NCBI GenBank assembly: GCA_002382805.1
Contig: DGAD01000031.1
Span: 93,565 to 157,564 of the forward strand
DNA: 64,000 bases
Reading direction: 5' to 3'
DNA from: Clostridiales bacterium UBA4039
GTDB taxonomy: Bacteria; Bacillota; Clostridia; Lachnospirales; Vallitaleaceae
Under the pieces are notes generated by a model that made no database searches, had not been told where the DNA came from, and was given only the letters and a program-made list of their open reading frames with translations. Made by a program: the position numbers and the translations under genes. This document shows positions 46,127 to 63,467 of the stretch, piece after piece (the first letter of the stretch is position 1; each line of letters starts with the position of its first letter).

Positions 46127-47302
46127 ATGAGAATGAAAATACGCGTGCCGAGTTATTACAAGGAGTTTAAATGCATAGCATCAGCATGTGAAGATACTTG
46201 TTGTGCAGGGTGGGATGTTGTAATTGATGCTAAAACCTATCAGGCCTATCAGAATATGGACGGTGCCTTTGGAGAACGCTTAAGAAACAAGATGATTGTT
46301 GATAAAGAAGGTGACAACATTTTTGTTTTAGATGGTATACGATGTCCGTTTTTAGATAAGGAGAATTTGTGTGACATACATAAAAATCTTGGAGAACAGT
46401 ATCTTTGCCACACATGTAAGCAATATCCACGATATACAGAAGAGTTTTTTGGCTTAAGAGAAATGGGGATTTCCTTATCTTGTCCTGAAGCGGCAAGAAT
46501 AATACTAAGAAATCCTGCAGGAATTGAATTTGAACTTAGTGAAGATAGTGCGGTTTCTAAAGAGCTAAATGAGGGAGAAGAAGATATATTGCAGGAGTTC
46601 TTTCGGTGCAGAGAGACTATTTTTCAAATCCTAGAGACCAAGGATATGCCCTTAGGGATTAGAGCAGCGATTGTGCTTAAGTTTGTACAAGAGATTCAAG
46701 ATAGAATAGATTTTAGTGAACTGAATGTCTTGCCTGAACTTAGACAAAAATATGAAGATAGTCACTTTATTTCGGAATTGGTTCAAAAATCATGTGCTTT
46801 TATAGGAGCAGAGGATATTAAGTATCATAACGTACATGCGTATTTTAATACATACAGTAAGTTAGAGCATATCAACAGCGAGGATCCCTTAGAGCTCAAT
46901 AGGATTTTAAGTACATACTGGACAAGTACTAGAGCAGATCAAGGGCTTTATACTCAAAAGCATAAAGAGTTTAATTGGTATTACATGCAGAAGATGGATG
47001 CATTTGAAAAGATTTTGGTGTATTTTGTCTATAGGTATTTTATGAAGTCATTTTACGACTATGATATGTTATCAAAAATTAAAGTGGCACTGATGAGTAC
47101 AATTATGGTTAAAGAACTGGCTGTCATAAGGTGGATAGAGAAGGGAGAACTGAGTGAAAGTGATATGGTAGACATAAGTCATACGTATTCAAAAGATATC
47201 GAACACTTAGAAGAGAATATAGAAACTTTAGCGACAATTTTTGAAACAGAGGACGTATATACTGTTGATAAAATTATAGAAACCTTGATACATGAATTTT
47301 AA
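46127..47302 (+). CDS. FliB-like flagellin lysine-N-methylase family protein
   Basis: A 391-residue protein of the FliB / YkgJ-type cysteine-cluster family. The N-terminus VPSYYKEFKCIASACEDTCCAGWDV and later CPFLDKENLCDIHK, YLCHTCKQYPR and SCPEAA give a rich set of conserved cysteines, probably binding a metal or Fe-S cluster. Salmonella FliB is needed for methylating lysines of flagellin; the exact substrate of clostridial homologues is unproven. No flagellin gene is in the window. The ribosome-binding site is weak (GAGTGTGAG). M3 at 46133 is an alternative start. Confidence 0.8.
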   Translation: MRMKIRVPSYYKEFKCIASACEDTCCAGWDVVIDAKTYQAYQNMDGAFGERLRNKMIVDKEGDNIFVLDGIRCPFLDKENLCDIHKNLGEQYLCHTCKQYPRYTEEFFGLREMGISLSCPEAARIILRNPAGIEFELSEDSAVSKELNEGEEDILQEFFRCRETIFQILETKDMPLGIRAAIVLKFVQEIQDRIDFSELNVLPELRQKYEDSHFISELVQKSCAFIGAEDIKYHNVHAYFNTYSKLEHINSEDPLELNRILSTYWTSTRADQGLYTQKHKEFNWYYMQKMDAFEKILVYFVYRYFMKSFYDYDMLSKIKVALMSTIMVKELAVIRWIEKGELSESDMVDISHTYSKDIEHLEENIETLATIFETEDVYTVDKIIETLIHEF

Positions 47303-47410: not shown

Positions 47411-48586
47411 ATGATCAATAAAATGTTTAGTAAAACACCCAACGTATATTCTTATGACATAACAGAAGAAAACATTCAGCAAATTGGGAAAAACATTAAA
47501 GCAATCAATTATAAACGATTAGTGATATTTAGTTTTTTAACAATGGTATTAGAAGTTTTACTAATTGTGTTTAATGATATCCCGGCTTTGACAAATCAAA
47601 AACATGGAGAGGGAATTGATCAGGCATACTTTCTCTTGCATGGAATTATATTGATGACTAGTTTAACGGTACTTATTCTTCTTAAGGTCTATAATAATCG
47701 CCGTGATAGCTATGTGTTTGATTTTATTGCAGAAGGAACTATTTTCATAGGGATGACTTGCATGGCTTTTATTGGAGTACTAGATCAGCTTGTTGTGGGA
47801 CAGATTACATCCTATGTAACAATGTTGATTATCTGTGGTATTGCAATTCTTATCAAACCGCCCAAAAATTATATTGTCTATTCGATTCCGCACTTTATTT
47901 TTTTAATGCTAACATTTAAATTTCAACAAAACCCAAATATGCTAGTTGATGTTGCTGTCAATAGCACATTATATTACATGTGCGTTTTAGTTATATCAAA
48001 AATTGTATATGACAATCAAGTAGAACATATGCTTAAGAACATGATGCTTGAAGCATCAAACAAGCAGTTAGAATATCTATCTAATTATGACCATCTTACA
48101 AATTTGTATAATCGGCGTTATTTTGAGTCAGTGATTATACAAGAGATTACCGATAATCCAGCTTATGCATCGAGAAATATTATTGTTGGTATTATGGATA
48201 TTGACCATTTTAAAAAAGTCAATGATGCCTATGGACATAAGGCTGGGGACAAGGTGCTTCAGGAAATTTCTAAGAGGATAAAAAAACACATAACAGGCAA
48301 AAATTCGTCATCAAGATGGGGAGGAGAAGAGTTTAGTTTTGTATTTATAGATATGACACGGGAGCAATGTCATACATTAGTCGAAGAACTTCGTGTTATA
48401 ATTGAAGATATGATTGTCGAGTTTGAAAAATATTCGATTCGTATTACTTCGAGTTTTGGGTTGGCAAAACTTCAAGGCGTTAGGGAACAAGATGTGTCTA
48501 TAGGATTTATACAAGCTGACAATGCTCTATATATTGCTAAGGAAAACGGAAGAAACTGTATACAATGGACAGATATTCAGTTGTAA
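47411..48586 (+). CDS. Membrane diguanylate cyclase (GGDEF)
   Basis: A 391-residue protein with about six membrane helices in residues 38-200, a short coiled linker (VEHMLKNMMLEASNKQLEYL) and a C-terminal GGDEF domain. The domain starts at NYDHLTNLYNRRYFE, holds MDIDHFKKVND and has an intact active-site loop RWGGEEF near residue 300. It should make cyclic di-GMP. The RxxD inhibitory site usually found five residues before GGDEF is absent (GKNSS), so product feedback through that site is unlikely. An inverted repeat, TATGGAAT/ATTCCATA, lies upstream at 47345-47389. Confidence 0.92.
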   Translation: MINKMFSKTPNVYSYDITEENIQQIGKNIKAINYKRLVIFSFLTMVLEVLLIVFNDIPALTNQKHGEGIDQAYFLLHGIILMTSLTVLILLKVYNNRRDSYVFDFIAEGTIFIGMTCMAFIGVLDQLVVGQITSYVTMLIICGIAILIKPPKNYIVYSIPHFIFLMLTFKFQQNPNMLVDVAVNSTLYYMCVLVISKIVYDNQVEHMLKNMMLEASNKQLEYLSNYDHLTNLYNRRYFESVIIQEITDNPAYASRNIIVGIMDIDHFKKVNDAYGHKAGDKVLQEISKRIKKHITGKNSSSRWGGEEFSFVFIDMTREQCHTLVEELRVIIEDMIVEFEKYSIRITSSFGLAKLQGVREQDVSIGFIQADNALYIAKENGRNCIQWTDIQL

Positions 48587-50228: not shown

Positions 50229-50327
50229 CCTTGTACTAATTTGGAAATAAAATATGATATACTATAGATATAAAATACTTTATTTGAGTTCTAGAAATAA
50301 ATAATGTATGAACGAGGGAGACTACAG

Positions 50328-50672
50328 ATGTTAATATTTCTAAATGTTATAGAGGATCGGGTTCTTCGAAGTCGACTAGAAGAAGCTTATCATTTGTATA
50401 AGAAAGAATTATTGTACATTGCACATGATATATTAAAAGATTATCATGAGGCAGAAGATGTTGTTCAAACAGCTTTTATTCAATTTGCTGATTATGTAGA
50501 TGAAGAAATGGATATCAAGTGTCACAAAACGAGAGGGTTAATTGTTATAATAGTTAGAAACCTATCTATTAATATTTACATTAAAAGAAAAAATAGGGAG
50601 ATAGCCAATATTGATGATCTAACAGACGTCATTTATGATGAAGAAAACATTGGCCCGGAAGTAAATGACTGA
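50328..50672 (+). pseudogene. ECF sigma factor, truncated after region 2
   Basis: The reading frame encodes about 114 residues with a sigma region 2 (EEAYHLYKKELLYIAHDILKD, then HEAEDVVQTAFIQFADY and RGLIVIIVRNLSIN). It stops at 50672, two bases before the left end of an IS3-like element, with no region 4. A complete ECF factor has about 160-190 residues including region 4, and no remainder is found beyond the element. The gene was probably cut by the insertion and a later deletion. GAGGGAG selects ATG 50328 over 50304. It is unlikely to be functional. Confidence 0.75.
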
Positions 50673-52309: not shown

Positions 52310-53130
52310 GTATTGGCAAACGAAACACCATGTATAAATGGGCCCAACGGCTTCGTAAAATAGTCGGTTAGGAGCTTGGTGAAACGAATCCGTTACAATG
52401 AGAAGGTGCATGGTAGCCTTGAGCAAGGCAACACAGTTTTCTTTTATTGTGATGCCGAGATGGGCAAGAATCATGCTCCTAGAGGCTCATTATCAAGGAC
52501 AAACGATCGAATGAGAAAAATGTCTTAGCAATTTAGAAAAAAATATGATAAACTTTAACCAACGATTTCAATTAAATTTACGAGGAGCTACTCTGTTCTT
52601 CTTTTTCCGAAACTAAACTAACGCAACCAACATCGAGGTTCAACGTGACAAGTGTAAAAACTTGTGATAAAATATATAAATAAGTAAAAACTTTCATTGA
52701 ACTAAAAATAGGATAAAATCATCAAGGGGACATAAGTAATAACCAAAGCAAATGACAAGAGGGAGTGATTTGTTTGAAGGTACTTGTCAAATGGCAAGAG
52801 AGAATTAATAAGGTGGTTGTTAGTCCATATTTTTCATATCAATTTTCTTTTTCCATATTCGATACGCAAATATATAATATATAAGACGCACTTGAGTTGT
52901 TGAGTGAACGTCAATTTAATTGAACCTTTTTCTGCATGTAAAAAAGGCGGTGAATAATAAGAGGTAACGGATTGAGGAGAGTATTTTGGGGAGCGAAAGG
53001 TCAACAAATCATAGATAGACAATCTCTAAAATTCCGAGCTATTTTAAATTTCATGAAGCAATAGAGGAAAATTCTTTTCCTTTATTTCGTGTACATAAAA
53101 TTCATCAAAATTAAGGATAGGAGGAAGAAA
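52310..53130. other. Decayed intergenic region with no supported gene
   Basis: About 820 bases without a convincing gene. Two short frames are noted: 52379-52528 (+, 49 residues, starting with GTG, containing KVHGSLEQGNTVFF) and 52774-52884 (+, 36 residues, TTG start with GAGGGAG nearby, MKVLVKWQERINKV). Neither matches a family I know, and both may be fragments of lost genes. The cheY ribosome-binding site AGGAGG is at the right end. No RNA gene was recognised. Confidence 0.5.
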
Positions 53131-53490
53131 ATGAAAAGGTTAATGATTGTAGATGATGCAGCGTTCATGCGAGCAACGATAAAAAGAATGCTTGATAGCC
53201 ATGAATATGAAGTGGTTGCTGAAGCTCCAGATGGAAGTGAAGCTGTAAAGCTATATAAACAGTATCAACCGGACATTACAACAATGGACATTACCATGCC
53301 GAATATGACAGGAATTGAAGCGCTCAAAGCAATAAAGCTATATGATGCCAATGCAAAAATTGTTATGGTTACCTCGATGGGACAAGAAAGTTTTATTCGA
53401 GAGGCAATTATGAACGGAGCCTCTTCATTTATTGTTAAACCATTCCAAAAGGAGAAATTGTTAGAAGTATTAGATGGTATAACGAAATAG
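53131..53490 (+). CDS. cheY: Chemotaxis response regulator CheY
   Basis: A 119-residue single-domain receiver. D8-D9 form the acidic pocket, D53 (MDITMPN) is the phospho-acceptor, the threonine is in MVTSMG, and the lysine in VKPF is present. It would carry the CheA signal to a flagellar motor or other output. AGGAGG before ATG 53131 rules out the longer frame from 53089. It leads a tight cheY-cheA-cheW-mcp-cheR-cheB operon. Confidence 0.93.
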   Translation: MKRLMIVDDAAFMRATIKRMLDSHEYEVVAEAPDGSEAVKLYKQYQPDITTMDITMPNMTGIEALKAIKLYDANAKIVMVTSMGQESFIREAIMNGASSFIVKPFQKEKLLEVLDGITK

Positions 53491-53500
53491 GAGGAATAGC

Positions 53501-55579
53501 ATGAGTAAGTCGTATATAGATGAACCGATGACAGAAGCTTTTGTTTATGAGACCTCGCAAATCGTAGAGACATTGGAAGAGGTTATTATAGCTAGTGAAA
53601 AAGTAGGAATGTTTAGTGCGGAGTCCATCAATGAAATCTTTAGATTTATGCATACAATCAAGGGCTCTTCAGCAATGATGATGTTTAATGATATGAGTAC
53701 TCTTGCACATCGTTTGGAAGATATATTTTATGTTATTCGAGAAGACATGGAGATGTCTTATGATTTTACGGTGCTTATTGATTTAATATTGGAAAGCATT
53801 GATTACTTTAAAATAGAATTGATGAAGGTGAAAAATGGGGAGAACCCCGATGGTGATCAATCTGTTTTATTAAGTCAAGTTTCAAGTTATTTAGAGGCAA
53901 TAAAAACCCCGGATACGACCGTCGTAAAGCCAAAAGAAGAACCACAGCAAAAATATTATATCCGTCCAAACAAAAAAGACCAAAATGTTCAATGCTACCA
54001 GGCAATTATATGGTATAAGCCAGATGCAGAGATGGAGAATATACGTGCCTACACAGTTGTTCATAATATCGCTGATTTGGTTGAAGAAGTTGTTTATTCA
54101 CCAGCAGATATTATTGAAAACGATAAATCCGCAGACGAAATTCGTCAGCATGGGTTTAAGCTTTTGATGCAGACAACCAGTACAAAAGAAGCCATAAAGT
54201 CCTATCTAGAAGGCACCATCTTTATGGAAAAGCTGGAGTTTGAATCTATTACAGAGCAACAGTACGCTGAATTTTTAGCAGCACAAAGCCAACCGGAAGA
54301 ATCCAATGAAATCAAGATTCCGGAAACATCAAAAAAATATGTAGAAAGTCAAGAAAAAAAAGAAAAACAAGATATTTCAATCAATACAAAACAAAGCATG
54401 ATTAGTGTGAATATCGATAAGTTGGATAAACTTATGGACATGGTAGGTGAGTTGGTTATAGCAGAAGCCATGGTCACTCAAAATCCAGAGATGATTGACC
54501 TAGAAATTGAAAGCTTTGATAAGGCGTCAAGACAATTGCACAAAATCACTGGAGAGCTTCAAGATATGGTCATGGCCATTCGCATGATTCCCCTTTCAAA
54601 AACATTTATGAAAATGCATCGCATCGTTCGTGACATGACGCGTCGATTAGATAAGCAAGTTCAATTAGAAGTTTTTGGTGAAGAAACTGAAGTAGATAAA
54701 AATATTATAGAAAAGATTGCTGACCCATTGATGCATATTATCCGTAATGCTATTGACCATGGGATTGAAAGTGCATCTGAGAGGATAGATAAAGGAAAAT
54801 CATCTCAAGGCAGTATTATATTAGAAGCAAAAAATTCAGGTAGTGATGTATTAATTTGTATAAAAGATGATGGAAAGGGTTTGGATAAGAAAAAGTTATA
54901 TGACAAAGCGATTGATCAAGGTTTAATCAATTCTTCTTTTGGGGAATTATCAGATCGAGAGTTGTATCACTTGATTTTACATCCGGGATTTTCCACAAAA
55001 GAAGAGGTGACAGAATTTTCAGGAAGAGGCGTTGGCATGGATGTTGTTGCCAAAAATATTGAGAGTGTTGGAGGAACTGTCCTTGTGGACAGTGTCCCAG
55101 GGGAAGGAACAACAATCACCTTAAAGATTCCTCTTACATTAGCGATTATAGAAGGAATGAATATTAAAGTAGGTCATTCAAGATTTACCCTTCCTATCGT
55201 GACCATAAGAGAATCATTTAGACCTCAAAACTCAGAAATCATAAAAGATACACATGGACAGGAGATGATTATGGTTCGGGGGCTTTGCTATCCGATTGTC
55301 CGTTTGAAAGAGGAGTATGATATACCTCATGGAGAAGAAGATGTTGAAAAAGGAATCTTAATCATGGTAGAAGAAGACAATAAATCTTGCTGCATTTTTG
55401 CCGATGAATTGTTGGGGCAGCAACAAGTCGTTGTCAAAGCATTACCGGAATATGTTAAAAAATATAAACAAATAAAAGGACTTGGAGGATGTACGCTCTT
55501 AGGTGACGGAAGTATCAGTCTCATACTCGATGTTGGAGAATTTAACTTGTCAAACGTTAATGCAAAAGTTCAAGTATAA
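53501..55579 (+). CDS. cheA: Chemotaxis histidine kinase CheA
   Basis: A 692-residue CheA with all five domains. The Hpt domain carries phospho-accepting H51 (FRFMHTIKGSSAMM). A P2-like CheY/CheB-binding domain lies near residues 150-260. The dimerisation domain begins at SVNIDKLDKLMDMVGELV. The ATP domain has DPLMHIIRNAIDHGIE, DDGKGLD and FSGRGVGMDVV. The C-terminal CheW-like domain is LAIIEGMNIKVGHSRFTLP onward. It phosphorylates CheY and CheB. TAGGAGG precedes ATG 53501, ten bases after cheY. Confidence 0.96.
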   Translation: MSKSYIDEPMTEAFVYETSQIVETLEEVIIASEKVGMFSAESINEIFRFMHTIKGSSAMMMFNDMSTLAHRLEDIFYVIREDMEMSYDFTVLIDLILESIDYFKIELMKVKNGENPDGDQSVLLSQVSSYLEAIKTPDTTVVKPKEEPQQKYYIRPNKKDQNVQCYQAIIWYKPDAEMENIRAYTVVHNIADLVEEVVYSPADIIENDKSADEIRQHGFKLLMQTTSTKEAIKSYLEGTIFMEKLEFESITEQQYAEFLAAQSQPEESNEIKIPETSKKYVESQEKKEKQDISINTKQSMISVNIDKLDKLMDMVGELVIAEAMVTQNPEMIDLEIESFDKASRQLHKITGELQDMVMAIRMIPLSKTFMKMHRIVRDMTRRLDKQVQLEVFGEETEVDKNIIEKIADPLMHIIRNAIDHGIESASERIDKGKSSQGSIILEAKNSGSDVLICIKDDGKGLDKKKLYDKAIDQGLINSSFGELSDRELYHLILHPGFSTKEEVTEFSGRGVGMDVVAKNIESVGGTVLVDSVPGEGTTITLKIPLTLAIIEGMNIKVGHSRFTLPIVTIRESFRPQNSEIIKDTHGQEMIMVRGLCYPIVRLKEEYDIPHGEEDVEKGILIMVEEDNKSCCIFADELLGQQQVVVKALPEYVKKYKQIKGLGGCTLLGDGSISLILDVGEFNLSNVNAKVQV

Positions 55580-55591
55580 AGAGGTGAAGAC

Positions 55592-56089
55592 ATGAATGAA
55601 GAAATGAATATCGTTCAAGAAGATTTAGAAGAGGATACTCAAAAAGGAAAATTTTTAACTTTTTGTCTCGGGGAAGAATCCTATGGGATTGATATCATGT
55701 ATGTTACAGAAATCGTAGGTATACAGCCGATAACTGTTGTTCCGGAACTACCGGATTTCATTAAGGGCATCATTAATCTTAGAGGAACCATTATTCCAGT
55801 AATGGACGCAAGAGTCAAGTTTAAAAAAGAAATAAAGCAATACAACGACCGAACATGCATTATCGTTATTGATGTGTTGGATTTGTCAATAGGGATTATT
55901 GTTGATGCTGTCTCAGAAGTGTTGAATATTAGTGAAGAAAATATTGTCCCACCGCCTAATTTAAATGCGGGAGCCAGAAAGTACATTAAAGGTGTGGGAA
56001 AGAGCGAAAACAATGTAACATTAATTCTTGATTGTGAAACTTTATTGGATGAAAATGAAATTGATGAGATTAAGGGAAGTAATGAATAG
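55592..56089 (+). CDS. cheW: Chemotaxis coupling protein CheW
   Basis: A 165-residue adaptor that links receptors to CheA. The core shows [39 protein letters not shown] and [12 protein letters not shown], all typical of CheW. N- and C-terminal acidic tails extend the usual 140-150 residue length. AGAGGTGA precedes ATG 55592. It sits between cheA and an MCP gene in the operon. Confidence 0.94.
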
Positions 56090-56099
56090 GAGGATGTAT

Positions 56100-57791
56100 A
56101 TGAAAGGGTTCTTGAACATGAAAATCACAGCAAAACTTATTACTGCATTTGTACTTGTTGCTATTGTCGCTGGAATTGTAGGCCTTGTTGGTATTAATAA
56201 CATGCGAACGATTGATGCCAATGGTCAAATTATCTATTCGAATATGACAGTACCATTAGCAGAAGCAGCAGAAATGGCTACGTTGTTTCAAAAGGTACGG
56301 GTATATACACGTGATATGATACTTGAAGATGATCCGGAAAAGATTGAAGAAAAGTATCGCACCATTACAACGATTGTTGATGAACTTGATGTAATATCAA
56401 CCTCCTTTGGCAATAAAGCGGTGTCTCAAGAAATGAAAGATGCGTTTGAACATTTCTTGCAGACACGAAGAGAATTTGGGGCTATACTACCAATGTTTTA
56501 TGAATTGTGTATAGAAAATGAAGATGTTAAGGCATATGCCTTAATAAATGGGGATATGCGTATTGCAGCAGACAATGAGCAAGAAGCCATTGATGCAATG
56601 GTCGATATGAAGGTTGAAGATGCCGAGAAGAAAGCAGAAGAAAATAATGCGGTTACGCTAGCATCTATTACAGTAATGATGATACTTATTGGCGGCGCAG
56701 TTATATTAGCAATAGGATTAGGTGTTATTATTGCACGTGTTATTAGTAAACCGCTGGTTCAAATGGTAAACGCCGCGAATCAAATAGCAGAAGGTAATTT
56801 AGCAATTGAGATCACAGTTGATCGAAAAGATGAAGTAGGAATGCTCTCAAAAGCGTTCAAAACAATGACGAAAAATATCAATAATGTTATGACGAACATT
56901 AATTCTGCGTCTGAACAAGTAGCTTCTGGATCGCGCCAAGTCTCTGACTCAAGTATGTCCTTGTCTCAAGGTGCTACAGAACAAGCAAGTTCCATTGAAG
57001 AATTGACAGCGTCAATAGAACAGATTGCCTCTCAAACACGACAAAATGCATCAAATGCTGAAAAAGCAGAAGAAATGGCGACATCTGCACAAAAATATGC
57101 GGAACAAGGAAATACTCAAATGACGGATATGTTAAAAGCCATGGAAGAAATAAATGATTCCTCCAATAATATTAGTAAAATTATTAAAGTCATTGATGAT
57201 ATTGCCTTCCAGACAAATATTCTTGCATTAAATGCAGCTGTTGAAGCAGCGCGTGCGGGTCAACATGGGAAAGGATTTGCAGTGGTAGCAGAAGAGGTTA
57301 GAAACCTTGCGGCTAGATCTGCAAGTGCAGCCAAAGAGACAACTGCAATGATTGAAGGCTCAATACATAAAGTTGAAGGTGGTACAAAAATAGCAAATGA
57401 AACGGCAGAAGCACTTAATAAAATTGTTGAAGGGGTATCTCAAGCAACGTCTTTAGTTGGATCCATCGCAACAGCTTCCCAAGAACAAGCGTTAGGTGTA
57501 GATCAGATTAATCAAGGGATTTCGCAGATTTCTGATGTTGTTCAAACAACAAGTGCAACTGCACAAGAAACGGCTGCGGCAAGTGAGGAACTATCTGGAC
57601 AAGCCGATATGTTAAAATCGCAAGTTGCAACTTTTAAGCTTCGCAACATACAAAAAAGCGATGGCTCAGAAGCGATTGATCCTGAAGTACTAAAAATGCT
57701 TGAAAGTATGAAAAATAATGATACAAATCATAGAGAAAAGAAAAGAAATCGAAAAATATCGCTTAGTGATACGGAGTTTGAAAAATATTAG
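56100..57791 (+). CDS. Methyl-accepting chemotaxis protein
   Basis: A 563-residue membrane receptor. The first membrane helix is at about residues 10-32. A four-helix-bundle sensor domain of about 150 residues follows, and the second helix is near residues 190-215. A HAMP domain ([20 protein letters not shown]) leads to a long cytoplasmic coiled coil with the signaling tip [21 protein letters not shown] and [15 protein letters not shown]. No C-terminal CheR-tethering pentapeptide is present. TAGGAGG selects ATG 56100. Being encoded inside the che operon, it is probably the dedicated receptor of this CheA. Confidence 0.94.
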
Positions 57792-57845
57792 AGGTACCTG
57801 ATTATCCATAGCTTATATCCTGCCAACATGGAAAGGGGTATGTAT

Positions 57846-58661
57846 ATGATAAAAATATCGGATGATGAGTTTAGGGTATTAGCGGATTATATAAAAGAGC
57901 ATAGCGGCATCCACTTAAAGGAACAAAAAAAGGCGCTATTGGTGAGTCGTTTAAGCAGTCTCTTAGATGAAAAGGGTATGGATAGTTTGATGACTTACTA
58001 TAAGCATTTAAAAGAGGATAAGGAAGGAGAAGAGCTTAGCCGACTTGTCGATCGCATTACAACAAACCATACCTATTTTATGAGAGAAGCTGAACATTTT
58101 TCTTTTTTTTCAGAGACAGTATTACCTTTTTGGGAGAAAAATGCAAAGAACAAAGATTTGCGCATATGGTGTGCTGCAAGTTCAACAGGAGAAGAACCAT
58201 ATGCATTAGCCATGTTGCTTGAGGATTATTTTAAAATGAAATCTGATAAGTGGGATAAAAAACTTTTGGCAACAGATTTGTCGCTAAATGCTTTGTCCAA
58301 GGCAAAGCAAGGGGTTTATTCGGCAGATAAAGTAAAGACGTTATCACGCCTTTGGGTTTTAAATTATTTTGATAAGATTACCAAAGATGATTATCAGATA
58401 AAGTCAAAACTTAAACAAGAAGTGATTTTTAGACGTTTTAATTTGATGGAGCCTGTGTTTAGCTTTAAGAAAAAATTTCATGTAGTCTTTTGTAGAAATG
58501 TAATGATATATTTTGACAATGACACCAAAGAGCGACTTATTAAAAAAATATATGATCAGATGGAATATGGAGGCTATTTATTTATAGGGCATTCAGAATC
58601 CATTAATCGTGAAACGACAGAGTTTAAGTATATTAAACCTGCAGTATACAGAAAAATATAA
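57846..58661 (+). CDS. cheR: Chemotaxis protein methyltransferase CheR
   Basis: A 271-residue SAM-dependent methylase that adds methyl groups to receptor glutamates. The N-terminal helical domain is followed by TTNHTYFMREAEHF, the SAM motif IWCAASSTGEEPYALAM, LLATDLSLNALSKAK and VVFCRNVMIYFD. AAAGGGG at 57832-57838 fits ATG 57846; the ATGs at 57828 and 57840 are too close or upstream. cheB, which reverses the reaction, follows. Confidence 0.94.
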   Translation: MIKISDDEFRVLADYIKEHSGIHLKEQKKALLVSRLSSLLDEKGMDSLMTYYKHLKEDKEGEELSRLVDRITTNHTYFMREAEHFSFFSETVLPFWEKNAKNKDLRIWCAASSTGEEPYALAMLLEDYFKMKSDKWDKKLLATDLSLNALSKAKQGVYSADKVKTLSRLWVLNYFDKITKDDYQIKSKLKQEVIFRRFNLMEPVFSFKKKFHVVFCRNVMIYFDNDTKERLIKKIYDQMEYGGYLFIGHSESINRETTEFKYIKPAVYRKI

Positions 58662-58674
58662 CCGGGAGGACCGT

Positions 58675-59682
58675 ATGAGTATTCGTGTACTAGTTGTTGA
58701 TGATAGTCTATTGTTTAGACAAATACTTGCAAAAGGCATTCAAACGGATACGGAGATAAAGGTTGTAGCTACAGCAACGGATCCGTTTGATGCAAGAGAC
58801 AAAATATTAGAATTTGAACCGGATGTCGTAACTTGTGATATAGAGATGCCAAAAATGAATGGAATTGAGTTTGTCAAACGTTTGATACCTCAGTATCCTG
58901 TTCCGGTAATCGTTGTTAGCTCTCTAAATGATAAAGTGTTTGATGCAATGGATGCAGGAGCGGTTGAATTTGTAGTAAAACCAAATGCCGGATCCCCAGA
59001 GAGTGTTCAAAAGTTTATTGTGAATCTTATTCAAAAAATAAAGGCAGCCTCCAAAGCGACGGTGGTTGTTCAAAACCCCAAAGACTTGGTTGAAAGCAAA
59101 GCAAAGCAAGTAAAAAAACATGAACTTATTGCCATTGGAGCTTCTACAGGTGGAACTGAAGCCATTTACTCAGTGCTAAGTCAATTGCCCCTTGGTTTAC
59201 CAGGGATAGTAATTGTTCAGCATATTCCGCCTGTCTTTTCAAGGATGTTTGCGGAACGTTTGAACAAACAAACACATTTTCATGTAAAAGAAGCTACGAA
59301 TGGAGATATAATACAGCGTGATCATGTATATCTAGCACCTGGAGACAAACACATGGAAGTAAAAAAAGCAGAACATGGGTATTTTCTTAAGGTTTTTGAA
59401 GGAGAAAAAGTCAACGGGCATTGTCCTTCAGTAGACATGTTATTTCATTCAGTGGCGCAAACGCTTGGAGATCGGGCATTAGGTGTGATTCTCACGGGTA
59501 TGGGCTATGATGGAGCTAAGGGCATTACAGTAATGAAGCGTAAGGGAGCTATAACTTTGGGACAAGATGCAGCATCTTCAGTGGTATATGGCATGCCAAA
59601 AGCAGCTTATGAGCTTGGGGGAATATCTAAGCAGACGTCGTTAAGTTTTATGGGGCATCATATTATGAAGTTATTGCAATAG
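58675..59682 (+). CDS. cheB: Chemotaxis protein-glutamate methylesterase CheB
   Basis: A 335-residue response regulator-esterase. The receiver domain (residues 1-120) has D9-D10 and the phospho-acceptor D55 (CDIEMPK). After a linker, the esterase domain has the catalytic serine in IGASTGGTEA, histidine in VQHIPP and aspartate in TGMGYDGAKG. It removes receptor methyl groups when phosphorylated by CheA. GGGAGGA precedes ATG 58675; the longer frame from 58609 overlaps cheR and is rejected. Confidence 0.95.
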   Translation: MSIRVLVVDDSLLFRQILAKGIQTDTEIKVVATATDPFDARDKILEFEPDVVTCDIEMPKMNGIEFVKRLIPQYPVPVIVVSSLNDKVFDAMDAGAVEFVVKPNAGSPESVQKFIVNLIQKIKAASKATVVVQNPKDLVESKAKQVKKHELIAIGASTGGTEAIYSVLSQLPLGLPGIVIVQHIPPVFSRMFAERLNKQTHFHVKEATNGDIIQRDHVYLAPGDKHMEVKKAEHGYFLKVFEGEKVNGHCPSVDMLFHSVAQTLGDRALGVILTGMGYDGAKGITVMKRKGAITLGQDAASSVVYGMPKAAYELGGISKQTSLSFMGHHIMKLLQ

Positions 59683-59711: not shown

Positions 59712-61967
59712 ATGTATGACCAGTTAGATTTCTATAAGGTTGTTGACACTCTTGGTGATGGGATTATTTGTGTCAATGATGAAAATAAAGTTGTATATAT
59801 GAATCAACGGGCTGCAAAAATCATTGATGCCCCGTATAAAATACAGAGTAATGCTTCGATTGAGACCTGTTTTAATATTTGCACAGAAAAGTCGGGAACA
59901 ATCATTGCTGATATTATCAGTGATGTTAAGCGTACGATGAAACCACGTGGTTTAGTAAAGGATGCTTTTATTGTTAATCATGAACAGGAAAAAGTATATC
60001 TATCAGCGAGTATTTCTCCGATTGAGATGAAGGGAAGTCTATACATTAGCATTAATTTCCGAGAAATTACAAAAATAAAATTATTGGAACTGGAAAATAT
60101 TGAACAAAAGAAAAACTTTGAGACAATATTTAACCGATTGCCTCTAGGAATTATTATTGTCAATAAAGAATTAAAAGTGCTGCAAGTTAATCCGTTTATG
60201 ATTCATCATTTTCAAATTGATGTACAGCAAAATATGGATATTATCCTAGGAAAGTTACTACGTTGCTCGAGAATTGGAGATGAGCGGTGCGGGATTGACC
60301 ATCGTTGTGAAGAATGTCTAATTAAGAAAAACGTGTATTTGTTAACGGAACAAGATGAAGAGTATGTGACAGGACAAGTCAAGTTTGAGAGCAATATCGA
60401 TGACATGGATATCATTAAACATTATCAAATTGGATTTGTTCGATTGCAAAAAAAAAAAGAAGAACAGATTATGTTGATTATCCAAGATATTACTGAATTG
60501 ATTGAAAATGAAAAGCGGATTAATGATGCAAAAGAAGAAGCGGAACGTGCCAACAAACTTAAAAGTGAGTTTTTGTCCAATATGAGTCATGAAATTCGAA
60601 CACCACTTAATGGAATTATAGGGATGATTGATCTATCAAAACGCAGTGTAAAAGATCAAGAGGTCATCGATTATCTTAATACAGCAAAAACATCAAGCAT
60701 AAATCTGCTTGAAATAATCAATAGTGTTTTGGATATATCAAAAATTGAAGCCGGTAAATTTGTGATTTATCGTAAAATGTTTAATTTGAAAAAAATGTTG
60801 GAAGAAGTCTATCTTGAAAATAAGGCGAAAATTAAAAGCACGGCAGTTGAATTACGTATAGATGCGTATAATTATCCAATTGAAGTGTTCAAATCAGATA
60901 GTCTAAGAATAAAGCAAGTCTTAAATAACCTTGTTGATAATGCAATAAAATTTACGGAAAAAGGAACAATACATATCGGGTATCAAATAGTAAAAAAGAG
61001 TGACACTTATGATTTTATGATCACCATTAGCGATACAGGCATAGGAATGGATGCATCATATCAGGAAAATCTTTATGAAAATTTTTCTCAAGAAGATGGA
61101 TCGTATACACGCCAAAAGGGAGGGACAGGCTTAGGATTAGCCATTTCAAAAAGTATTGTTGAAAAGATGCAAGGAAGTATTTATTGTGAAAGTACACTTG
61201 GAAAAGGTACTACGTTCACATTGCATTTTTATTTAGAAGAACCAGATTCAAAGACACTGAACATGCAAACAGCAGAGGATATCATTGAAGAAAAACCCGT
61301 ACATATTCCGTCAAGAAAAGGACGTATTCTTCTTGCCGAAGATGATCGCATAAATCAAAAAATTGTTAAGACACAATTGGAAAATGATGGGCATATAGTA
61401 GATGTTGCAGTTAATGGCAAGCAAGCCGTTGAATATTATGAGAAAAATCAAAATTATGATTTGGTATTAATGGATATCCAAATGCCAGTCATGAGTGGTT
61501 TAGATGCAACAGATCATATAAGAAGTCTGCAGGAGAAGAAAAGAATTCCAATTATTGCTCTAACGGCATTAGCCTTAAAGGAAGACAAAGAAAAAATTAT
61601 GCAGCATGATTTTGATCTATACTTAACAAAACCGATTCAGCTTGTACAACTTCAAAATATTGTTATGGATATTTTAAATGTGCAGGATATCGATTTGTAT
61701 GATCGGGCAAAAACCAATGACAAGGCTCAACTTTTGATAAAAGAGCTTTTAAAAAGTATGCAATACGAAGGGGAAACTTATGATTTCGTAAAAATAAATA
61801 ATCAAGCAGAGATTTTGTTTGATGTGATCGATCAGTATCCTTCTGATCAACTAAGGCGCAATGCACTTCGACTAAAGATGAAGCTTAGAAAAAATGATCC
61901 GGAAAAAATGAAAGTGTTGCTTAATCAGATGCTGCTAGATTTAGAAGAGGATGTATTACAAAAATAG
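59712..61967 (+). CDS. PAS-domain hybrid histidine kinase with a four-cysteine motif
   Basis: A 751-residue protein without membrane helices, so a cytoplasmic sensor. Two PAS-like domains (about 8-125 and 130-265) come first. The second holds C185, C193, C199 and C202 (C-x7-C-x5-C-x2-C), a candidate metal or Fe-S site. The HisKA domain has H293 in [11 protein letters not shown], followed by the HATPase domain ([35 protein letters not shown]). A receiver has D588 in LVLMDIQMP. About 100 helical residues close the protein without an Hpt histidine motif. GAGGTGAG precedes ATG 59712. A stand-alone receiver gene follows, its probable partner. Confidence 0.9.
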
Positions 61968-61995: not shown

Positions 61996-62388
61996 ATGTT
62001 GAAAATATTAATCGCAGAAGATGATATGGTTAGTCGAAAGTTGCTTTGGAAAGTTTTAGATGAATATGGAGAATGTGATTTGGTGGTCAATGGTCTAGAA
62101 GCTATTGATGCACATATGATGTCTATAGAAGATCAAGAGTTTTATGACTTGATTTGTCTAGATATTATGATGCCTAAAGTTGATGGCGCGAAAGTATTAA
62201 AGACGATTCGAGATCTCGAAATGCAATATGAGGTCAAAAAAAAAGCGAAGATAATCATGATTACAGCACTCTCAGAGACAGAGGTTGTTGATGATACCTT
62301 TAGCAAAGGAGCAGATGCATATGCGACCAAACCCCTTGATATTGATAAATTCGTTGAAGTCATGAAAAACCTTAAATTGATTGAGTAG
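61996..62388 (+). CDS. Stand-alone response regulator receiver protein
   Basis: A 130-residue single receiver. The acidic pair is E8-D9-D10, D56 (CLDIMMPK) accepts the phosphoryl group, and the threonine is in MITALSE with the lysine in ATKPLD. No output domain is attached. AAGGAGG precedes ATG 61996, and the frame upstream overlaps the kinase 3' end. It lies between the hybrid kinase and the J-domain protein with gaps of 28 and 8 bases, so the three are probably expressed together and may form one pathway. Confidence 0.9.
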   Translation: MLKILIAEDDMVSRKLLWKVLDEYGECDLVVNGLEAIDAHMMSIEDQEFYDLICLDIMMPKVDGAKVLKTIRDLEMQYEVKKKAKIIMITALSETEVVDDTFSKGADAYATKPLDIDKFVEVMKNLKLIE

Positions 62389-62396
62389 AGGATACT

Positions 62397-63467
62397 ATGA
62401 ATAATAAATTTGTTGATTATTTTCAGTTATTAGAGCTACATATGTTTGCAAGTGAAGAAGCGATTCGATCAGCATATAAGCGCTTAATTGTAAAATATCA
62501 TCCGGATAATGATGGAAATAAAGAAAAATTCTTGTTGGTTAAAGAAGCATACAAGACGCTCATAAATTATGAACAACGGCAAGAATACTTTGGAGTATGG
62601 AAAAACAATATGCTTTCTCAAGAAGATTGCTGTATGGTGCCTACAAAGACATATGAAGATATGGCATTTAACAAGGTATTAGTCACAGTAAATGCATATA
62701 TGTTGTATCTAATGAATACACAGTATAAAAAAGCATATGAATTACTTTGCCATGAGTCACAGAGTAGAATTTTTTTGAAAGACTTTATACACTGGCAAGA
62801 GCTTGTAAGTGAAATTCATGAGATTACTAAGTTTAGCAGTTCAGTTGATACGGTTGAATTGGATGAGATATATGGGACCCAGGTTATCTGTTGGGTGAAA
62901 GTACGAGAATATAATGTGTTGCTCAATCATTTTGAAGAAGATTTATTTCGACGTGTGTTAGTCTTTGAAAAAGGAGAGTGGAAAATCTATCTTCAAGAGA
63001 TTAACATACGTCAAGTTATAAAAAAATATAAAAAAATTGTAGTAACATATAAGAAAAATGCTAAAAATAAAAGAGCTAATCTCAAAAATCACTATGTAAC
63101 GAAGTTTTTAGATGAAGAATCATTTGTTCACAACCTTGAATATGAATTTTTAAGATATCAGCGTTATAAACGAACTTTTGGTTTAATTGGAATTGAAGTA
63201 GGAAATATAACAGCACAAAAAATCAATAAAGTTATCCGTAGTATTCATCTGTGTACGCGCATTACAGATTCTTTTTGTACAATAGGTCATAATAAAATCG
63301 TTGTACTATTACCTGAAACAGGTGATAGAGGAATAAAAGCGGTGAATCACAAGCTTCAAAATATATTTAATAAAGAAGGGCTCTTAGAAATTCGCATTCA
63401 GATGGTTATAGTGGATACATCTTTTGAAAGCGTCAAAGAAATATTAAAAGAAACGATAGGTTCTTAA
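62397..63467 (+). CDS. J-domain protein with C-terminal degenerate GGDEF-like domain
   Basis: A 356-residue protein of unusual composition. The N-terminus (about 6-65) is a DnaJ J-domain with the essential HPD at residues 35-37 (KYHPDND). Residues about 90-200 resemble an NTF2-like fold (YKKAYELLCHE, then VFEKGEWKIYLQEINI); this is a weak inference. After a basic linker, residues about 239-356 look like a nucleotidyl-cyclase/GGDEF fold (CTRITDSFCTIGHNKIVVLLPET) in which the GGDEF loop reads GHNKI, so catalysis is not expected. It may be a ligand-binding or adaptor domain. ATG 62397 is eight bases after the receiver gene; TAGAGGA is the ribosome-binding site. Confidence 0.75.
   Translation: MNNKFVDYFQLLELHMFASEEAIRSAYKRLIVKYHPDNDGNKEKFLLVKEAYKTLINYEQRQEYFGVWKNNMLSQEDCCMVPTKTYEDMAFNKVLVTVNAYMLYLMNTQYKKAYELLCHESQSRIFLKDFIHWQELVSEIHEITKFSSSVDTVELDEIYGTQVICWVKVREYNVLLNHFEEDLFRRVLVFEKGEWKIYLQEINIRQVIKKYKKIVVTYKKNAKNKRANLKNHYVTKFLDEESFVHNLEYEFLRYQRYKRTFGLIGIEVGNITAQKINKVIRSIHLCTRITDSFCTIGHNKIVVLLPETGDRGIKAVNHKLQNIFNKEGLLEIRIQMVIVDTSFESVKEILKETIGS

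Follow-up and report, generated by a model that had tools for sequence, protein, structure and literature searches.

The window, that is, the whole stretch of 64,000 nucleotides that was analysed, comes from the genome of Clostridiales bacterium UBA4039 and carries a chemotaxis operon on its forward strand. The che genes are headed by a CheY-like single receiver (53089..53490, PF00072, 8.8e-30), which is followed by CheA (53501..55579), with its Hpt, P2, H-kinase_dim, HATPase and CheW domains, by CheW (55592..56089, PF01584, 4.7e-38), by a methyl-accepting chemotaxis protein (MCP; 56028..57791, PF00015, 6.9e-55), the true start of which probably lies inside this open reading frame (ORF), by CheR (57828..58661, PF01739, 6.4e-61) and by CheB (58609..59682, PF01339, 2e-62). 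A hybrid kinase with the Pfam domain order PAS-PAS-HisKA-HATPase-receiver (59712..61967) and a stand-alone receiver (61996..62388, PF00072, 5.3e-17) come next. For the receiver, a start at 61996 is more likely than one at 61951, as judged from a GGAGG upstream and from the congener protein, which begins MLKILIAEDD. All these genes are separated by short gaps or overlap, and 8 bases past the receiver gene begins the gene studied here (62397..63467, forward strand), which is the last one of the operon. This ORF has homologues and encodes a protein of 356 amino acids, hereafter the J-NTF2-GGDEF protein.

Promoter-like sites were found at the level of shuffled sequences (67 vs 62.1) and terminator-like sites slightly above it (11 vs 6.2, standard deviation 2.5); none of the 11 is located on the forward strand directly behind the J-NTF2-GGDEF gene. 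On the other side of the che genes, an ORF of 122 amino acids (50304-50672) matched sigma-70 region 2 only and represents a truncated or unusual sigma-like protein. An ORF of 391 amino acids (46127-47302), for which Pfam gave no hit at E 0.01, adjoins a GGDEF protein of equal length (47411-48586); a duplicate origin of these two was rejected, since they show no mutual similarity.

J-domains recruit and stimulate DnaK. In the J-NTF2-GGDEF protein, this domain spans residues 7-64 (62415..62588) and was recognized by PF00226 with an E value of 1.6e-13 (51 bits, for a Pfam cut-off of 27.8) and by a match to DnaJ in the PDB (2.3e-9); the PDB sequence matches of the whole protein were mostly J-domain proteins, over the J-domain. 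The HPD motif, which forms the Hsp70-stimulating loop, is intact at residues 35-37 (62499..62507), as the first-pass annotation had read it. PF00226 was detected at E 0.01 or better in 37/37 family members and HPD was present in all 26 aligned members, a set without the relatives whose ORF has no J-domain; for larger member sets, including the 100 used below, HPD was a selection criterion. By Pfam DnaJ, the host genome contains three J-proteins: DnaJ, the J-NTF2-GGDEF protein and a TerB-J protein. The latter (L135, positions 5841-6764 on contig C45) combines a TerB domain with a C-terminal J-domain, a DjlA-like arrangement.

The order J-NTF2-GGDEF was deduced from the secondary structure of the predicted model. 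The middle domain (about residues 86-200, 62652..62996) appears to be NTF2-like and to resemble MecA_N, which agrees with the possible NTF2-like segment mentioned in the first-pass annotation. Besides the secondary structure, this assignment is supported by Foldseek, for which PBP2a/PBP3 (without residue ranges) were among the matches listed, and by a profile of the middle domain, which recovered PBPs whose MecA_N scores well above the cut-off. PF05223 (cut-off 22 bits) gave weak scores of 19-21 bits in three relatives and was found in 2/37 members (best E 2.1e-4); in the J-NTF2-GGDEF protein itself it did not match in a Pfam scan up to E 1, and a search of solved structures with the middle-domain sequence profile gave none below E 0.03. 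The other class-level matches of this profile (L080-L091) were rejected as relatives: nine are PBP-like (MecA_N in the three that were scanned), one is a protein of 174 amino acids without a Pfam match (L091) and two (L080 in G695 and L081 in G679) are lipoprotein-like, with a weakly MecA_N-like NTF2 domain and TPR repeats. From its sequence, the NTF2 domain of these two appears to be an extracytoplasmic cousin of the middle domain described here. Matches of the J-NTF2-GGDEF protein to Methyltransf_36 and WWE_5 were sub-threshold and were rejected, the former reaching E 0.01 in just 1/20 and 1/37 members.

Residues 236-356 (63102..63464) form a degenerate GGDEF domain. The Pfam GGDEF match was sub-threshold (residues 251-326, 13.5 bits, E 0.064), and when a profile built from relatives was compared with the PDB, GGDEF chains filled the matches listed, which identified the C-terminal part as a GGDEF (nucleotidyl-cyclase-like) fold. 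The earlier proposal of a GGDEF-like domain that has lost its catalytic loop is thus supported.

A first protein search returned five relatives with 98% to 26% identity, the most distant of which was already annotated as DnaJ + GGDEF. A profile of the part that follows the J-domain then collected 23 and later 123 proteins (120 among the matches listed). The first-pass annotation had taken the architecture as one without a described system. In this respect it holds, since no description of proteins with a J-domain and a GGDEF domain was found in the titles and abstract openings of the open-licence literature, and the terms 'DnaJ' and 'J-domain' occur 0 times in two c-di-GMP effector reviews, of 2023 and 2025; the architecture is however not rare, as it forms about 100 clusters. 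The set of 100 J-type members used for the counts consists of database proteins, six genome loci and the host protein. P0002 (a 98% copy), P0022, P0038, P0099 and P0103 (ORF without J-domain) were left out, as were P0104 and lower-scoring profile matches without DnaJ annotation.

The spread of the family is patchy. Full-length members were present in 3/392 genomes of the order (G000, the host genome, with G011 and G012), 4/391 of the class (G000, G447, G473 and G572) and, at E 1e-7, 3/398 of the phylum (G000, G988 and G1067). G010, of the same genus as the host, gave no full-length match, and a search of the orders of G447 and G572 yielded no additional member. The few named relatives come from Anaerovoracaceae, Clostridiales, Clostridiales Family XIII, Eubacteriales and Bacillota. 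Other genomes within the host family also encode J-proteins (L007-L014, L018), which are by eye of CbpA/DnaJ types; as their similarity is confined to the J-domain, they were rejected as relatives. At the extreme C-terminus, 60 of 95 J-type proteins (a set including the host protein and its near copy) carry a conserved tail close to LGKYKLSDILGFNKKGKNHF, for example P0017, P0021 and P0027; the host protein is devoid of it, and no genome of the tail-bearing lineage emerged at class level from a search whose profile was enriched in sequences of that lineage. Because AtcJ of Shewanella binds AtcC by its last 21 residues, it is a fair guess that this tail may likewise bind a partner.

In order to establish which functional residues the GGDEF domain retains, the members were aligned to PleD, the sequence of which was checked. 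The GG[DE]EF motif occurs in 0/100 members, the host protein having GHNKI (residues 297-301, 63285..63299) in its place; an aspartate at the position of PleD D327 is found in 1/100, and the loop metal position is acidic (D or E) in 5/100. An active diguanylate cyclase, defined by the GG(D/E)EF loop and the metal aspartates, is not predicted from these residues. With the metal and GTP positions lost to this extent, it is also very improbable that the domain senses another nucleotide, for example GTP, at the former active site, even if the degenerate GGDEF domain of CC3396, cited in PMC7288161, provides a precedent.

In contrast to the active site, the inhibitory site (I-site) was kept. In PleD, c-di-GMP is bound by R313, R359, D362 and R390, of which R313 is supplied by the partner and the other three by one domain (PMC7288161); the DgcR paper concurs on R313 and R390, the partner contact in DgcR itself being made by a non-homologous arginine (PMC8041772). 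According to the alignment, R253 (63153..63155) corresponds to R313, the RITD sequence of residues 288-291 (63258..63269) to the primary RxxD of R359 and D362, and K319 (63351..63353) to R390. The spacing is also that of PleD, with RxxD followed by five residues and then by the GG(D/E)EF position. The R313, R359 and D362 positions carry R, R and D, respectively, in 100/100 members each and are invariant in 30/30 representatives (below 60% identity); for R313 this count derives from the full-length alignment and is 99/100 when L094 is cropped, which leaves a gap there. K or R occupies the R390 position in 89/100 members and 28/30 representatives, most members having K as in the host protein, and 11/100 have neither. 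RxxD is also found in all five relatives left out of the 100. The R-x-x-D that had been taken for part of the GGDEF core pattern is therefore retained, its meaning now being sharpened to that of the c-di-GMP inhibitory site, and the guess of a nucleotide signal gains support from the complete R-RxxD triad.

Among the 110 columns of the GGDEF domain, eight reach a conservation of at least 97% among the representatives. The three I-site columns belong to these eight, for which the chance is 2.6e-4. The remaining five (E250, R256, L304, E307 and T308) are not explained by the I-site. Since these are equally invariant, and as GGDEF domains serving as protein-contact modules have been described (PMC5635695), RxxD could have been retained as a protein-binding surface: the dead domain would then be a ligand-free scaffold, with RxxD and R253 as docking surface for a receiver, a flagellar or a diguanylate cyclase protein. 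We consider this unlikely, because the invariance falls on three residues that jointly bind c-di-GMP in PleD (PMC7288161, PMC8041772) and holds across lineages with differing neighbours.

As a control, the other GGDEF domains of the host genome were inspected (37 PF00990 matches, 34 GGDEF matches being above the cut-off; the J-NTF2-GGDEF gene itself and a chance match in a recombinase-like ORF were excluded). RxxD was present in 13/29 canonical domains, one of which reads SGDEF, and in 1/6 degenerate ones, so it is not required for the fold. In the other carrier genomes, the top-scoring canonical GGDEF domains showed RxxD in 19/24 (a motif was obtained from 24 of 30 loci, and the remaining 6 were not counted), and the contrast is therefore weaker there. 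When pooled, 32/53 canonical domains have RxxD vs 30/30 representatives (Fisher 1.4e-5, a value that is indicative only, as the sequences are related). Six carrier genomes have 4 to 37 GGDEF matches each, several of these counts including the J-NTF2-GGDEF gene's own domain, and at least one GG[DE]EF protein was found in each of the six carrier genomes besides that of the host, which serves only as a consistency check.

A plainer reading of the family is that of ordinary J-proteins, the C-terminal part of which binds clients only, without signalling, so that the DnaJ name would be the whole story. J-proteins usually have client-binding C-terminal domains, which counts in its favour, and the few named members are called 'DnaJ domain-containing protein' or bear a GGDEF/diguanylate cyclase name. 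Against it, the C-terminal part adopts a GGDEF fold in which a nucleotide site was selectively retained, and we regard this reading as improbable.

Two other kinds of degenerate GGDEF proteins were encountered. The only degenerate host domain with RxxD (L133, contig C50, 31500-34500) has RDTD, DUF4118 and, by eye, an epimerase-like N-terminus. By our own assignment, which draws on these parts and on how PelD of Gram-positive bacteria is described (PMC7112168), L133 would be PelD-like, which suggests a Gram-positive pel-type locus in the host. In two genomes of the host family, proteins of 289-297 amino acids (L023, 1168-2037 in G003; L024, 1309-2202 on the minus strand in G002) begin, as judged by eye, with a receiver-like part (L023 gave no Pfam match) and contain an inactive GGDEF domain, in which RETD is retained and YGPLK or YGPMK replaces GG[DE]EF; they are perhaps another c-di-GMP receptor.

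The gene neighbourhoods of the other carriers were then compared. In G011, of the host species, the gene order is as in the host. G012, of the host genus, retains the order MCP-kinase-receiver-J, with a receiver 79%, a kinase 43% and a J-NTF2-GGDEF protein 40% identical to those of the host; its kinase has a single PAS running directly into HisKA and lacks the cysteine-bearing second PAS. The kinase-receiver-J trio was not seen in the stretches covered around the five other loci (G447, G473, G572, G988 and G1067), two of which are truncated by contig ends (G1067, 3.8 kb; G572, directly behind the gene). The pairing with a PAS-Cys4 hybrid kinase and a lone receiver, as first annotated, stands for the host species and is not supported for the family in general. 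Accordingly, a specific coupling of DnaK to the adjacent kinase-receiver pathway is doubtful: the gap of only 8 bases behind the receiver gene and the conservation of the gene order in G012, at an identity as low as 40% for the J-NTF2-GGDEF protein, speak for it, whereas the absence of the trio from the stretches covered at the five loci, two of them truncated, and of the PAS-Cys4 part from the G012 kinase speaks against it.

In G572, of an unrelated family, the gene lies at the end of a run formed by an HD domain protein, fliC, flaG, fliD, fliS, an ORF of 119 amino acids and the J gene itself, after which the contig ends; the HD domain protein appears from its HD_5 match to be of the HD-GYP type. 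In G473 (13.0 of 15.4 kb), the flagellin regulators csrA and fliW (L094, 10157-11098) share the strand of the J gene at a distance of 6.6 kb, with unrelated ORFs between. No motility genes were seen in the stretches covered around the gene in G447 (6.6 kb), G988 (13.5 kb) or G1067 (3.8 kb); its neighbours are argininosuccinate genes in G447 and glutamate synthase genes and a NYN-LOTUS protein in G988. Flagellin was matched in 7/8 carrier genomes. The exception is G1067 (97% complete), and a flagellar client is therefore not general. For two lineages, the gene context points to clients from chemotaxis or the flagellum. Since GGDEF proteins occur in all carriers searched for them and motility genes near some, the constant would be c-di-GMP signalling, with motility as one likely output.

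Taken together, the gene probably encodes a c-di-GMP-responsive J-domain protein that steers DnaK, a reading to which we assign a probability of about 0.6 from the sequence features. The messenger would steer the chaperone because the dead GGDEF domain keeps c-di-GMP-binding residues. Binding of c-di-GMP by this domain is most likely, because the residues corresponding to those of PelD are present, with a lysine for the last: an RxxD I-site, a dead active site and a downstream basic residue compose the PelD-like pattern. Following this scheme, c-di-GMP would bind at R253, R288xxD291 and K319, and a c-di-GMP dimer would probably cross-link two GGDEF domains, as in PleD; dimerisation is assumed here because the R313-type arginine acts from the partner domain. 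Ligand binding would alter how the protein assembles or is exposed, its NTF2-like domain probably being a platform for dimerisation or client binding, and the J-domain would then bring in and stimulate DnaK at a specific client. In this way, the messenger level would be translated into an act of folding, disassembly or degradation and would determine whether, or at which site, DnaK becomes active. The position of the J-NTF2-GGDEF gene at the end of the che-kinase-receiver operon makes a component of chemotaxis or motility the most likely client in the host genus.

The J-domain and the degenerate GGDEF domain both belong to known kinds, and their fusion suggests c-di-GMP control of DnaK targets. 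If so, J-protein chaperone targeting would join the outputs of c-di-GMP, c-di-GMP would be linked directly, in Bacillota, to the action of chaperones on machines of motility or of the envelope, and, within the literature examined, this would be the first second messenger gating an Hsp70 co-chaperone via a fused receptor. It would also give a function to a family so far named by one of its domains. The prediction of c-di-GMP binding depends on a few residues and is directly testable with purified protein. We see about even odds that these proteins form a new class of c-di-GMP effectors, in which J-domain proteins sense the messenger with an inactive GGDEF domain and direct Hsp70 to selected clients.

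The closest known receptor is PelD, which also combines a dead GGDEF fold with RxxD and a downstream basic residue and the structure of which (4dmz) was among the Foldseek matches listed. P. aeruginosa PelD binds c-di-GMP with a Kd of 1 uM and does not bind GTP, the binding of c-di-GMP being lost in R367A, D370A and R402A (PMC2170427); the Kd of B. cereus PelD, which binds via R363xxD366 and R395, is 103 nM (PMC7112168). PelD differs in its GAF domain and in its role, the regulation of Pel polysaccharide export (PMC7112168): instead of GAF-GGDEF in a pel operon, the present protein has a J-domain partner in a che operon, with no pel gene at the locus. PleD and DgcR, which contain a REC domain, are catalytically active, unlike this family, which lacks the active-site motif. 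A c-di-GMP-receptor-type domain fused to the Hsp70 system is known from CsdK1/CsdK2 of Myxococcus xanthus, in which the receptor is PilZ rather than GGDEF and is fused to DnaK itself rather than to a J-protein (PMC10313047). AtcJ of Shewanella, a dedicated J-protein, recruits DnaK to one particular pathway, in cold adaptation, and contacts its partner with a C-terminal tail; AtcJ is short (a J-domain and 21 residues), without NTF2 or GGDEF domain (PMC6715715). In many members of the present family, the conserved tail may act likewise. Finally, DnaK1-DnaJ3 of Nostoc is a dedicated pair of Hsp70 and J-protein that is linked to a motility machine (PMC9239167). It serves type IV pili, the chemotaxis-like control of which has been described (PMC9239167), and the term 'c-di-GMP' is absent from that paper.
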